Below are positions 18,672-23,783 of a stretch of DNA of 64,000 bases, one piece after another. The stretch lies in the NCBI GenBank assembly GCA_937868765.1, contig CALMNL010000003.1, positions 248,001-312,000 of the forward strand. Reading direction: 5' to 3'. The position numbers were made by a program, and so were the translations under genes. The notes beneath the pieces were generated by a model. It saw only the letters and a list, made by a program, of their open reading frames with translations, searched no databases and was not told the DNA's origin. Each line of letters opens with the position of its first letter. Within the stretch, counting starts at the first letter, position 1. Origin of the DNA: an uncultured Desulfatitalea sp. (lineage in GTDB: Bacteria; Desulfobacterota; Desulfobacteria; Desulfobacterales; Desulfosarcinaceae).

Positions 18672-19181
18672 GGATTCCTCATGTTTTTAAGCGGTTCGAT
18701 CGCGCTAACTTATGCACAGAAATATGTCTTTGGCAAGTCATAGAAACCGCTTAAGCTTGGCGCTCTTCTGCCGATAACCCAAGGAGAAGTGGCCATATTT
18801 TTGACGGGTCCGAAAGAGAGGCATGTTCATGTTTCGCCATATGGACGCATTGGGCCCGACCGAAGCTGTATGGGCAGGGGCAATGATTTTTGTGGCGTTC
18901 CGTGGCCTGTAAATTGCATCTGATACGATTCGGTCGAATCGAGGCTCGACGGCAATAAATGTAATAAAATAAATTTGTTGTCGATCGGGTTGGTTTATGG
19001 TACCAAAATCATGAACAAAATCGGTTCAGGCCGCATGCAGGGCCATCGTCAAGCCGATTCCGACAGACGCCTTGGCGATGGGGGGTGACTTTTAGCGGCC
19101 TCCGTGACATTCAATGGTGAATGGGCACGGGGCGCGATTCCCGCCCCATGCGGGAGTGCACATAAAGCCTGGGAGAATGTT
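18672..19181. other. 510-base divergent intergenic region upstream of pilC
   Basis: No convincing gene. Contents: a sigma-54-like element at 18903-18918; an AT-rich stretch at about 18955-18980; a small hairpin CATTCA/TGAATG (19108-19123); and a GC-rich hairpin GGGGCG/CGCCCC (19129-19134 with 19142-19147) ending 35 bases before the pilC start. The last hairpin has no T-run, so it is not an obvious terminator. If the sigma-54 site is used, pilC has a leader of about 250 bases whose role is unclear. Confidence 0.6.
18903..18918 (+). promoter_or_regulatory. putative sigma-54 (RpoN) promoter upstream of pilC
   Basis: TGGCCTGTAAATTGCA matches the -24/-12 consensus TGGCACG-N4-TTGC at 9 of 11 defined positions, with the invariant GG and GC exactly spaced. 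It points toward pilC, whose start codon is about 260 bases downstream. Confidence 0.5.
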
Positions 19182-20393
19182 ATGCCGGTTTATTTGTGGG
19201 AGGGGAAAAACAAGGCCAACCAGATCCAGAAAGGACAACTGGAAGCGGTCAGCGATGAGGCGGTGCGTGCCCATTTGAATCGTCTCCGCATTGTTCCCAC
19301 CAAAGTCAAACAGAAGCCCAAAGAGCTATTTGAGAATGTCGCCTTTTTACAGCCCAAGGTCAAAGAAAAAGACATCATCATTTTCGCGCGTCAATTTTCC
19401 ACCATGATTGATGCCGGCCTGCCGATCATCCAGTGCATGGATATTCTCCAATCCCAGCAGGAAAACCCCACTTTCAAAAAAATGCTCAAGGATATCAAAG
19501 ACCAGGTAGAGAGCGGATCCACCCTGGCAGATGCCCTCAAGCGTTATCCAAAACATTTCGACAACCTGTTTACAAACATGATCGCGGCTGGAGAAGCCGG
19601 TGGTATTCTGGATGTCATCCTTAAGCGCTTGGCTGCTTACATGGAAAAAGCGGCAAGATTAAAGCGGCGCGTCAAGGGCGCTATGGTTTACCCAGCGATT
19701 ACCATAACCGTAGCGGTCGTCGTAGTAGCAATCATCCTCATTTTTGTTATTCCTGTTTTTCAATCCATGTTCGCTGAGTTCGGGGCCGGTTTGCCGGGGC
19801 CTACGCTTCTCGTCATTGCTTTGAGTGAGTTCGTTAAGTCGAAAATTCATTTTATTATAATTGCTTTGGTACTATTATTCCTTGCCTTTAAGTACTATTA
19901 TCGGACCGATAAAGGCCGACTGACGATTGATGCCTTTGTTCTAAGGCTGCCAGTTTTTGGACTGCTGCTGCGAAAGGTGGCCGTGGCCAAGTTTACTCGC
20001 ACCATGGGCACCATGTTGGGTAGCGGTGTGGCTATCTTAGATGCGTTGGATATTGTTGCAAAAACTTCCGGAAATCGAATTGTCGAAAATGCAATTTACC
20101 AAGTGCGATCGGGTATTGCCGAAGGCCGTACCATGGCCGATCCACTGCAAGCCAGCGGCGTATTTCCAGCTATGGTGTGTCAGATGATTGCAGTGGGCGA
20201 ATCCACCGGAGCACTGGACGCTATGTTAGAGAAAATTGCTGATTTTTACGATGAAGAAGTGGATCAAGCTGTGGAAAACCTTACAGCTATGATTGAACCA
20301 ATGATGATTGTGTTTTTAGGTGTTGTTGTCGGTGGCCTAATCGTAGCGATGTACCTGCCAATCTTCAAGATGGCCGGTGCAATCGGAGGATAA
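19182..20393 (+). CDS. pilC: type IV pilus inner-membrane assembly protein PilC
   Basis: Polytopic platform protein of the type IV pilus (GspF/PilC family) that couples the cytoplasmic ATPases to pilin polymerisation. The 403-residue protein has two GspF domains (about 70-190 and 270-395). In the first are FARQFSTMIDAGLPIIQC and MIAAGEAGGILDVIL; in the second, FTRTMGTMLGSGVAILDAL and MIAVGESTGALDAML. Three membrane segments lie near 170-190, 220-240 and 370-395. ATG 19182 has GGGAGA upstream. pilB, pilT and pilin genes are not next to it; a terminator follows, then pilS. Confidence 0.95.
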   Translation: MPVYLWEGKNKANQIQKGQLEAVSDEAVRAHLNRLRIVPTKVKQKPKELFENVAFLQPKVKEKDIIIFARQFSTMIDAGLPIIQCMDILQSQQENPTFKKMLKDIKDQVESGSTLADALKRYPKHFDNLFTNMIAAGEAGGILDVILKRLAAYMEKAARLKRRVKGAMVYPAITITVAVVVVAIILIFVIPVFQSMFAEFGAGLPGPTLLVIALSEFVKSKIHFIIIALVLLFLAFKYYYRTDKGRLTIDAFVLRLPVFGLLLRKVAVAKFTRTMGTMLGSGVAILDALDIVAKTSGNRIVENAIYQVRSGIAEGRTMADPLQASGVFPAMVCQMIAVGESTGALDAMLEKIADFYDEEVDQAVENLTAMIEPMMIVFLGVVVGGLIVAMYLPIFKMAGAIGG

Positions 20394-20481: not shown

Positions 20482-21792
20482 TTGCAAAAGCTTCAAACCG
20501 AAATTGATTTAGCCCGCGACATCCATCCAAAACTAAAATGGTTGATGTTCGCACGACTTATTTTTACAATATGCTTATTGGGTTCGACCCTATATCTGCA
20601 ATACCAACGCGTGGGGCCCTCTATATCTGGTTTTATTACGATCCTTTACCTTTTGATCGCGGTCATTTTTTTGCTTTCCTTGCTGTATGCCATGGTCTTC
20701 AAACGTATCAATCGCCATGCGCTCTTTGCAGCCATCCAGATCGGCATTGACTCTTTTATTGTTTCCATGATCGTGCTGATTACCGGGGGCTTTTTTAGTG
20801 TATTTTCTTTTTTATACTTGGTGATTGTTATTTATGCGAGCATGATCCTTTATCTGCCAGGCGGGGCAGCATTAGCTGTCTTGTGTGGGCTGCAATATTC
20901 CGGCATCGTCTTGCTTCAATACCTTAATGTCGCAGAACTTGCGGGCATCGATGTTAGCTCGGCCTTGCGGCAGGTGAATTCTCTTCAAATTCTCTTGAAG
21001 GTGGGAATTACCACAGTGGCTTGCTTCGCGGTGGCGCTTCTGACTGGCCTGCTGACGGAGCAAAATCGAAGGAGTCAGATCGACTTGCGTGCAATGGAAA
21101 TGCACCTCAAGCGAGTGGAGAAGATGGCCTACATGGGCGAGATGGCCGCAGGTCTGGCCCATGAAATAAAAAATCCGTTGGCGTCGCTGGCCGGGTGCAT
21201 CCAGCTGCTGAAAGAGGAGTTGCGATACGATCCGGACCACCAGCGATTGATGGAGATCGTCTTGCGCGAAACCGATCGACTGGGCCATCTGGTCAACGAA
21301 TTTTTGCTTTTCGCGCGTCCGCCGGCCGGCAAGCCAAAGATGTTGCGAATGAAGGAAGCTATTGAAGAAGTTGCCGGATTATTCGAGAAAGACACCAACC
21401 ACGCGCACCGCTTCACCCTCAAGAAGGAAATTGTTGCGGACGCCAGGCTGCTTATGGATCCTGCCCATTTGCGTCAAATCCTTTGGAATCTGCTCTTGAA
21501 TGCGGCCGAAGCTTTGCAGGGGGACGGAACTATCGAGATCCATGCGGTCCCCACTAAAAATAATGAAGTGAATATCCAGATTCGGGATAACGGCTGCGGC
21601 ATGACCCCCGAAACGATGCAGAAAATATTCGATCCCTTTTTTACCACCAAATCAGAGGGGACCGGCCTGGGGCTGTCCATCGTGCATCGCATTTTGGAAA
21701 CATATGACAGCCGACTGGACGTGCAAAGCCAACCCGGTGTCGGCACTACCTTCAGCTTTTTTCTCAAGCGGTCGGACAGGGCAAAGGCCTGA
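20482..21792 (+). CDS. pilS: PilS-type membrane sensor histidine kinase
   Basis: Histidine kinase of the PilS group. Residues about 20-190 form about six membrane helices (from KLKWLMFARLIFTICLLGSTL). A short linker follows, then HisKA with the phospho-acceptor in GLAHEIKNPLASLAGC and a HATPase domain with NLLLNAAEAL (N box), IRDNGCGMTP (G1) and TKSEGTGLGLSIV (G2). It has no PAS or receiver domain. The start is a TTG at 20482 with a weak ribosome site; the next Met is inside the first helix. The usual partner PilR (a sigma-54 activator) is not adjacent; instead a surface-protein gene with a sigma-54-like promoter follows. Confidence 0.85.
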   Translation: MQKLQTEIDLARDIHPKLKWLMFARLIFTICLLGSTLYLQYQRVGPSISGFITILYLLIAVIFLLSLLYAMVFKRINRHALFAAIQIGIDSFIVSMIVLITGGFFSVFSFLYLVIVIYASMILYLPGGAALAVLCGLQYSGIVLLQYLNVAELAGIDVSSALRQVNSLQILLKVGITTVACFAVALLTGLLTEQNRRSQIDLRAMEMHLKRVEKMAYMGEMAAGLAHEIKNPLASLAGCIQLLKEELRYDPDHQRLMEIVLRETDRLGHLVNEFLLFARPPAGKPKMLRMKEAIEEVAGLFEKDTNHAHRFTLKKEIVADARLLMDPAHLRQILWNLLLNAAEALQGDGTIEIHAVPTKNNEVNIQIRDNGCGMTPETMQKIFDPFFTTKSEGTGLGLSIVHRILETYDSRLDVQSQPGVGTTFSFFLKRSDRAKA

Positions 21793-21955
21793 CGCTCTCC
21801 GGTTTTTCAGCTTGTACACAATCTTTCGCCCAGTGATGCACGAAAAGATACGTTCGATTTTTCCGCTGAATGCCTCGGCTTCATGAAACCTTTTATAATT
21901 ATTTAATCTATTAAAAATTATATAAAAAATAAAATGATGCCCATCCATTTTTAAA

Positions 21956-21971
21956 TGGCATGAGCATTGCT
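21956..21971 (+). promoter_or_regulatory. putative sigma-54 (RpoN) promoter upstream of riboswitch
   Basis: TGGCATGAGCATTGCT matches TGGCACG-N4-TTGCW at all defined positions but one, with GG and GC at the correct -24/-12 spacing. Predicted transcription would begin near 21982, about 30 bases before the c-di-GMP aptamer. An AT-rich tract (21880-21940) lies upstream, suitable for bending or activator contact. Confidence 0.65.
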
Positions 21972-22010
21972 TTCTATGCAACCAGCAAGGTACTTTTGAC
22001 GCTCTTTTAA

Positions 22011-22111
22011 CTTCGACTCGAAAAAGGCAAATCATCCGAAAGGATGAGACGCAAAGCCACTGGCCTAAGTCCTGAGAAACCGGGATATGGCAGCAGGGTT
22101 GCCGGGTGAAG
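22011..22111 (+). ncRNA. cyclic-di-GMP class I (GEMM-I) riboswitch aptamer
   Basis: All GEMM-I hallmarks are visible. P1 forms from CTTC-ACTC (22011-22019, one bulge) with GGGTGAAG (22104-22111). GGCAAA precedes hairpin P2, CATCC-GAAA-GGATG (22033-22046). The conserved GACGCAAAGCC follows (22048-22058). P3 carries the 11-base tetraloop receptor CCTAAG (22064-22069) and TATGG (22086-22090). The 3' element GGGTTGCC is at 22096-22103. The base before CAAA is G, which by my alignment to the V. cholerae Vc2 RNA corresponds to G20 and favours c-di-GMP over cGAMP; that ligand call is tentative. It lies 55 bases ahead of the surface-protein start codon. Confidence 0.93.
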
Positions 22112-22114
22112 GCG

Positions 22115-22165
22115 ACGTCTCCCAATAGCCGCCATTCGCACGGTGACGGAATGATCGGGGGACGT
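22115..22165 (+). promoter_or_regulatory. riboswitch expression platform sequestering the ribosome binding site
   Basis: ACGTCTCCC (22115-22123) can pair with GGGGGACGT (22157-22165) over nine bases with one G-U. The second strand is the Shine-Dalgarno sequence directly before ATG 22167. There is no T-run after the stem, so control of translation rather than termination is indicated. Whether ligand turns the gene on or off cannot be read from the sequence. Confidence 0.6.
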
Positions 22166-22166
22166 A

Positions 22167-23783
22167 ATGCATAACAAACAGTTCACCACCATCGCCACCA
22201 TCCTTATTTTAGCTGGCTGTATTCTTTTCTTCACGGTATCATCGGGAATAGCCGCGCAAGTTAGCCTGCAGTGGGATGCCAATGACCCGGCGCCCGATGG
22301 ATACCGGCTATACCAGCGTGTCTCCGGCCAGGATTACAATTACGCCTCGCCGGTATGGAACGGTACCGAAACCAGTTGCACCCTCAACAACCTGGCCGAT
22401 GGGACCACTTATTATTTCGTGGTACGCGCTTTTCAGGGAAGCGATCAAAGCGGTGATTCCAATGAAGTACAATATGTGGTTGCAGGGGCTACCCCTGCGC
22501 CAACCCCCACGCCTTCGCCGGTTGCGGATAGTGATGGCGATGGGTGGAACGATATCATCGATGCCTTCCCCAATGATGCCACCGAATGGCTCGACACCGA
22601 TGAAGATGGCATTGGCAACAACGATGATTTGGATGACGATGGCGACGGCATGTCCGACACATGGGAGACACAATATGGCTTGAACCCTTTGGTAGACGAT
22701 TCCCTTGAGGATCTGGACGGTGATGGCATTACCAATGGTGAAGAATTTGCCCTCAATAGCGATCCTTCCCAGGTACCCGGAAATACCGCTCCGGATCGCC
22801 CCCTGCTGGATCAGCCTGGTGAAGGGGCCACAGGAATCTCGTTGATGCCAACCTTGAGCACCGAAGCCTTTTTAGATGCTGACGGCGACCACCATGCCCG
22901 CACCTGCTATCAAATCAGCACGAACGCCGATTTCGCAGATACCGATGCCTATGTATTCGAAAAAACATATACTCAGCATTTGACCAGCTTGCAGGTTCCC
23001 GAACTGATCCTGGATCCGGAAACAGTCTACTACTGGCGGGTTAGGTTTATCGATGAGCACAACGGTGCCTCGGAGTGGTCGGAAGTGTTCTCTTTCGAGA
23101 CCATTACCTATGCCGAAGCCGGGGATGAAAACCGCAATGGCATTCTGGACACCCAGGAACTCGATGAGAACAGCGATCTGGATGGTGATGGCACCGCGGA
23201 CACGGTTCAGGCTGGCTTGCAGGGGGTTATCACAGGTGATGCCTTCAATCCCCGCATGGCTGTAAAACGTGTCAGCAGCAATATTCAGGTGGGCAGCGTT
23301 CAACCCATGGATGCAACCCTTCTTACCCAGGCGCCCAACTGCCCCCCGCACCTGACCGGCGTGATCGGGTTCAAGCTCTATCTCCTTGAGGATCCTGCCA
23401 TTGCTACCGTTATGGTCTATTTCTCTCAACCGGCGCCTGCCAATGCCTTGTGGTATAAATACGATCCAGATGAAGGTTGGAGCGTTTATCCCCAGGCGGT
23501 GTTCAGTGCCGATCGTCGGTCGGTGACCTTGATTCTTGAAGACGGCGGTACTGGCGATCAGGATGGCGTCCGCAATGGGATCATCGTCGATCCAGCGGGG
23601 TTAGGATACAGCACCCAGGCATCCGAAACCGCCGATGTTGGCGGAACTGCTTCGGACGCGGCCGGTGGGTCGGGCTGCTTCGTTGAAAGCTCCCGCATGA
23701 CCTCGGTAAGCGGTGCTGTCTATGCTTTGTTGGCCAGCTTCATTCTGGCTGCCTGTATGTTTTTCGGGCGCAGACGGGATTGA
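22167..23783 (+). CDS. secreted Ca-repeat surface protein with C-terminal anchor signal, c-di-GMP riboswitch controlled
   Basis: 538 residues. Order: signal peptide (about 1-30, cleavage near GIAAQ); a fibronectin III-like domain (about 32-105); a PAPTPTPSP linker; Asp-rich thrombospondin-3-type calcium repeats (about 118-200; DSDGDGW, DTDEDGIGN, DDDGDGMSD, DLDGDGITN); a second FnIII-like domain (about 205-310); another Asp-rich stretch (DENRNGILD, DLDGDGTAD); then a region resembling the choice-of-anchor U domain (about 355-490). It ends with GGSGC (500-504), a hydrophobic segment and GRRRD, the layout of a CTERM protein-sorting tail. The role is probably adhesion or matrix display, by inference. 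Expression is set by the riboswitch and sigma-54-like promoter upstream. Confidence 0.82.
   Translation: MHNKQFTTIATILILAGCILFFTVSSGIAAQVSLQWDANDPAPDGYRLYQRVSGQDYNYASPVWNGTETSCTLNNLADGTTYYFVVRAFQGSDQSGDSNEVQYVVAGATPAPTPTPSPVADSDGDGWNDIIDAFPNDATEWLDTDEDGIGNNDDLDDDGDGMSDTWETQYGLNPLVDDSLEDLDGDGITNGEEFALNSDPSQVPGNTAPDRPLLDQPGEGATGISLMPTLSTEAFLDADGDHHARTCYQISTNADFADTDAYVFEKTYTQHLTSLQVPELILDPETVYYWRVRFIDEHNGASEWSEVFSFETITYAEAGDENRNGILDTQELDENSDLDGDGTADTVQAGLQGVITGDAFNPRMAVKRVSSNIQVGSVQPMDATLLTQAPNCPPHLTGVIGFKLYLLEDPAIATVMVYFSQPAPANALWYKYDPDEGWSVYPQAVFSADRRSVTLILEDGGTGDQDGVRNGIIVDPAGLGYSTQASETADVGGTASDAAGGSGCFVESSRMTSVSGAVYALLASFILAACMFFGRRRD

Follow-up and report, generated by a model that had tools for sequence, protein, structure and literature searches.

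On sequence evidence, a sigma-54 promoter stacked on a c-di-GMP-I (GEMM-I) riboswitch is a conserved and reused arrangement that marks a regulon, not a one-gene switch. We analysed it in a 64 kb stretch of Desulfatitalea DNA (hereafter the window), where it precedes a gene for a predicted 538-aa secreted surface protein (22167–23783); this and all other window features described below lie on the + strand. We think it probable that the leader of this gene combines a licence with a veto: sigma-54 transcription would depend on an activator, and c-di-GMP would then block translation (an OFF switch).

The aptamer and its probable ligand

The Rfam covariance search proposed in the initial annotation gave a full-length match to RF01051 at 22016–22106 (cmscan, 87.5 bits against a gathering score of 35, E 5.9e-16). 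That annotation had drawn the aptamer from 22011 to 22111. The extra ends are the P1 arms, which do pair: the minimum-energy fold joins the 5' strand (22011–22020) to 22103–22111.

We mapped the aptamer onto the numbering of Vc2 by reasoning from the P2 pairs. The ligand-pocket equivalents of Vc2 G20, A47 and C92 are invariant or nearly so (alignment A1). The first of these, G22026, is the selectivity position, and it is a G here and in all 33 aligned relatives. A G at this position is what we take to be the c-di-GMP-type selectivity residue, and c-di-GMP is the probable ligand. The aptamer could instead sense 3',3'-cGAMP (GEMM-Ib), as happens in Geobacter, a relative of this deltaproteobacterial group, and the selectivity of GEMM-I is graded (PMC9262584). 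Given the residue found in 33 of 33 relatives, we judge cGAMP specificity to be extremely unlikely.

The promoter and its conservation

The initial annotation had also claimed a sigma-54 (-24/-12) site at 21956–21971. This sequence, TGGCATGAGCATTGCT, is the sole exact match to TGGCAYNNNNNTTGCW (TGGCAY-N5-TTGCW) in the window, where 0.21 would be expected by chance. The looser pattern TGGC-N7-TTGCW has five matches against 2.3 expected. With such expectations the motif on its own is only suggestive, and what makes the site convincing is its position ahead of the aptamer together with its conservation. The +1 of the leader is predicted near 21982. The genome has a single rpoN and 63 matches to Sigma54_activat (PF00158), about 58 of them strong.

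Conservation is visible first within the genome itself. It contains five RF01051 matches, and the four that exceed the cut-off all have a sigma-54 site, with the -12 element 21–45 nt upstream of the aptamer. Three of these stacked leaders precede FN3 surface proteins and one precedes a diguanylate cyclase. Hence, the earlier description of a switch on a single adhesin-like protein holds in that one surface-protein gene follows the leader in the window, but the switch is not limited to that protein.

We then took 163 non-tandem aptamers and scored the 110 nt ahead of each (threshold at least 12.9 of 15.9). A sigma-54 site precedes 31 of the 36 elements in the genus and 25/70 of those elsewhere in the family. 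At the level of order and phylum the counts are 3/29 and 11/28; here the samples consist mostly of the best-scoring aptamer per genome and do not give population rates. As controls, the same windows read on the opposite strand contained no site (0/163), and windows placed about 220 nt farther upstream had one in 5/161. The spacing from the -12 element to the aptamer falls in a narrow range (median 33 nt). We reject a chance origin of the site on this conservation, with its strand and distance controls, and the promoter claimed earlier is an exact consensus, unique in the window and conserved ahead of GEMM-I aptamers. We infer that it is active.

One may still suppose that the motif is fortuitous and that a housekeeping promoter, or read-through from the upstream pilS, transcribes the gene, with c-di-GMP as the sole regulator. 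About 0.2 such sites are expected by chance per 64 kb, and no terminator was detected on the + strand between pilS and the aptamer. We regard this as very unlikely, because the site recurs ahead of 31/36 elements in the genus and in none of the strand controls, because a further conserved motif lies upstream of it (see below), and because the + strand between 21700 and 22300 showed no sigma-70-like site.

The arrangement extends beyond these clades. When 84,980 species genomes were scanned by pattern, 97 stretches had a sigma-54 site followed by a GEMM-I core, many from Desulfobacterota and others from Rokubacteria, Acidobacteria, Planctomycetes and elsewhere; because such a scan picks stretches for having the motif, it speaks to reach rather than to frequency. 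Separately, related genomes of the same order contain about four to six GEMM-I aptamers arranged in tandem (G155:C109:690-1206, G163:C75:11273-11672, G163:C79:7082-7405, G166:C1:232183-232510 and G183:C102:7438-7794).

The proteins encoded behind the leaders

FN3-type proteins follow 50 of the 163 aptamers and share an N-terminus (AQVxLxWDxNxPxPxGYRxYQR), while their central domains differ (TSP3, PKD or InlB-type repeats). Their start codons lie 49–73 nt past the aptamer. The sigma-54 site is found in 42/50 FN3-type leaders against 28/113 of the others (Fisher p 1.7e-12, shared ancestry uncorrected, a value that overstates the significance because the sequences are related).

The protein of the window has a signal peptide-like N-terminus, an FN3 domain, TSP3 repeats, a second Ig/FN3-like domain, a choice-of-anchor U domain (NCBIfam, 73.6 bits, cut-off 32) and a C-terminal anchor made of GSGCFV, a transmembrane stretch and an RRR tail. 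The label 'adhesin-like' given to it by the initial annotation describes this make-up (FN3, TSP3 and choice-of-anchor U) only. NCBIfam found choice_anch_U and no PEP-CTERM model on this protein, and membership of the PEP-CTERM regulon was ruled out for lack of that signal. Several FN3 proteins of the group (window 23640–23783; L025, L018, L072, L050 and L067) share an ending in which a G-x-CF(I/V)-like motif is followed by a transmembrane stretch and then by a basic tail. This ending resembles a sorting signal.

The fourth aptamer of the genome precedes the gene of a GAF-PAS-GGDEF protein whose GGEEF motif is intact (L003:1465-1720 and L294:209-2200, contig C8, 63.4 kb). A strong terminator separates this aptamer from the gene, and its stem repeats the 3' end of the aptamer, CCGGGTTGCC, as it does with small changes at 10 sister loci. 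Since the sequence is present twice, the 3' arm of the terminator could pair with either copy. The stack on a diguanylate cyclase suggests product feedback on c-di-GMP synthesis. L119, the one sister locus tested, has a PocR sensory domain.

Predicted masking of the ribosome binding site

A stem hiding the ribosome binding site of the gene at 22167 had been proposed, and we recovered it. The anti-SD strand ACGTCTCCC (22115–22123) and the Shine-Dalgarno (SD) region GGGGGACGT (22157–22165) form a helix of 9 bp, with one G-U, within the minimum-energy fold (-63.8 kcal/mol). This helix covaries in relatives. Across 37 type-A leaders (alignment A2), 83.6% of its pairs are standard, and both partners have changed in 12 of 12 aligned pairs. 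Its covariation score is 0.403; shuffles give 0.236, and slid versions of the helix reach no more than 0.164.

A second predicted fold competes with P1. The anti-P1 hairpin (22098–22147) has 16 pairs in the window (22098–22104/22141–22147, 22106–22110/22135–22139 and 22111–22114/22130–22133), captures the 3' P1 strand and has the anti-SD in its loop. In the competing helices, aptamer UGCCG pairs with CGGYR, and GGCG/CAGC with CGCC/GCTG; standard pairs make up 80.5%, against at most 56% when the helices are slid, and covariation is weaker than in the SD mask. The topology is found in 57 leaders of two sequence families: the 37 of type A and 20 of type B, the latter with unrelated sequence (GGCAAACGG/CCGGTTGTC around TCCTCC). 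Shuffle z-scores of the hairpin are modest (mean -1.9 for type A and -0.9 for type B), and in many relatives the predicted fold pairs part of the anti-SD inside it. Prediction and covariation together give a P1 and an alternative helix that are mutually exclusive and coupled to SD masking. We also considered whether the anti-SD pairs directly with the aptamer bases GAGACG, which fits the window by eye but not leader L103, and dropped the idea. In type-B leaders (e.g. those of L002 and L112), the expected transcription start is followed at once by a small GTTC...GAAC hairpin, 20–30 nt before the aptamer.

The energies of the two folds constrain how the switch could work. P1 with a masked SD is predicted at -63.8 kcal/mol and the anti-P1 fold at -58.7 kcal/mol. 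As the masked fold is better by about 5 kcal/mol even without ligand, a free SD would depend on kinetic trapping, and the anti-P1 hairpin would have to be a co-transcriptional trap. The hairpin is transcribed ahead of the SD.

Direction of the switch

The initial annotation gave no direction for the switch. The competing helices point to an OFF switch: with the anti-P1 hairpin as a trap, c-di-GMP is predicted to lower translation, as in Vc2 (PMC9262584). Repression of a surface protein by c-di-GMP is the reverse of the common expectation for adhesins, and this counts against OFF. The same stack could work as an ON switch, bound c-di-GMP freeing the SD and raising translation, which would fit the usual link between c-di-GMP and adhesins, the product here being a surface protein. 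GEMM-I ON switches are known, e.g. that of pilM in Geobacter metallireducens, which acts by antitermination (PMC9262584). We nevertheless find an ON switch rather unlikely. P1 (22011–22020/22103–22111) does not overlap the anti-SD, so that the ligand-bound RNA would be free to mask the SD, and the one conserved alternative we found in which the anti-SD is taken away draws on the 3' P1 strand and on the C that contacts the ligand.

Under the preferred OFF reading, an enhancer-binding protein, probably two-component and of the NtrC/PilR kind, would bind about 100 nt upstream and fire the sigma-54 promoter, so that leader RNA from about position 21982 would be made only under the signal of the activator. 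The nascent RNA would then pick one of two folds. When c-di-GMP is scarce, the anti-P1 hairpin (22098–22147) would take the 3' P1 strand, keeping the anti-SD looped and the SD free, and protein would be made. When c-di-GMP is bound, P1 would be locked, the anti-SD (22115–22123) would pair with the SD (22157–22165) and translation would stop. This layout is common to the three FN3 surface proteins of the genome. At the diguanylate cyclase, a terminator stands where the SD mask would be, and the stack would produce negative feedback on c-di-GMP.

The candidate activator

The initial annotation had proposed that a two-component signal gates transcription. The neighbourhood of the leader makes this plausible, because a gene for a PilS-like membrane histidine kinase (20482–21792; Pfam HisKA, HATPase_c and 6TM_PilS) lies directly upstream and is syntenic in relatives. 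It is preceded by a pilC-like gene for a type IV pilus/T2SS platform protein (19104–20393; Pfam T2SSF), whose top NCBIfam match is PilC, under PilC's own cut-off. The latter gene starts a conserved synteny block: its homologue occupies the same place in sister species (about 82–92% identical), where the order pilC-pilS is kept. In Desulfatitalea and at several Desulfosarcina loci, the leader module likewise has a PilS homologue upstream.

A motif search in 22 related promoters supplied the conserved upstream motif. The GTGCA-N7-ATAC-like motif (LL 112.8 against 62–72 in shuffles) lies mostly 90–145 nt upstream of the sigma-54 site. Its copy in the window, TGATGCACGAAAAGATACGT (21834–21853), stands 101 nt before that site and is UAS-like, a candidate activator site. 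A second group of promoters has a related site, TTTTTTGCAC, at about 109 nt. This motif, too, makes two-component gating plausible. PilR may be the activator, since pilS is directly upstream. A pilR-like response regulator gene directly precedes the strongest pilin gene (pilA) on another contig of the same genome, and the pilA promoter has a sigma-54 site of its own, ATGGCATAGCGATTGCT. A simple search before this pilA gene turned up no clear UAS copy, so that PilR stays a candidate for the role. The pilR-like gene and the top pilin are at L275:1075-2466 and L299 (contig C15, 28.9–30.6 kb); this contig carries none of the listed PilS-homologous kinases, and the PilS-like kinase sits in the window.

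Implications of the stack

A sigma-54 promoter stays silent until it is activated, and a riboswitch acts once initiation has taken place. Stacking the two would therefore give an AND-type gate with very low leak. We give even chances to a wider reading, a conserved regulon spanning Desulfobacterota and some other phyla that systematically joins sigma-54 promoters to c-di-GMP riboswitches, activator-licensed transcription and a c-di-GMP veto being applied to FN3 surface proteins and, in Desulfatitalea, to a diguanylate cyclase that would shut itself off. Recurrence of the pairing marks out a c-di-GMP regulon, as yet unstudied, in sulfate reducers of environmental importance, and the leader alone predicts surface proteins. 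With two independent sequence families of one platform, the logic of the switch is testable in both.

Comparison with known systems

We found no prior report of a sigma-54 promoter stacked on a c-di-GMP riboswitch in the open-access literature, a scope in which a report in a subscription journal could be missed. The available portions of two surveys of sigma-54 regulons (PMC12316311 and PMC4641369) mention no such case.

Among known riboswitches, Vc2 of Vibrio cholerae is described in the available text of PMC9262584 as a translational OFF GEMM-I. The leader studied here resembles it in its aptamer, in the masking of a distant ribosome binding site and in the predicted translational OFF logic through competition for P1. 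It differs in sequence and platform, in being launched by a sigma-54 promoter and in recurring before FN3 proteins. GEMM aptamers also precede FN3 surface-protein genes in Geobacter (Gbem_1796, 1798 and 1799; KN400_1971), as they do here, whereas the available parts of those reports describe neither a sigma-54 promoter nor an SD-masking/anti-P1 platform (PMC2996986 and PMC13194489).

Other systems share the transcriptional layer. The PEP-CTERM/PrsK-PrsR regulon (Haft 2006, PMC1569441) places a sigma-54 site and an upstream activator motif ahead of genes for surface-anchored proteins, under an NtrC-like two-component regulator. The likeness lies in the site, the motif and the kind of target, but no riboswitch was described there, and the C-terminal anchor differs, the protein in the window having a choice-of-anchor U domain and a GSGCF-transmembrane-basic tail. 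The pilA gene of Geobacter is under PilS/PilR-RpoN control (PMC2725144). Here, too, PilS stands beside the module, the promoter is of the sigma-54 type and a pilR-pilA pair occurs elsewhere in the genome; in contrast, the gene concerned encodes an FN3 protein and carries a riboswitch, and PilR is only a candidate for the role. The parts are thus known singly, and what is new, relative to the open-access literature, is the recurrent sigma-54/GEMM-I pairing, its reach and the regulon.
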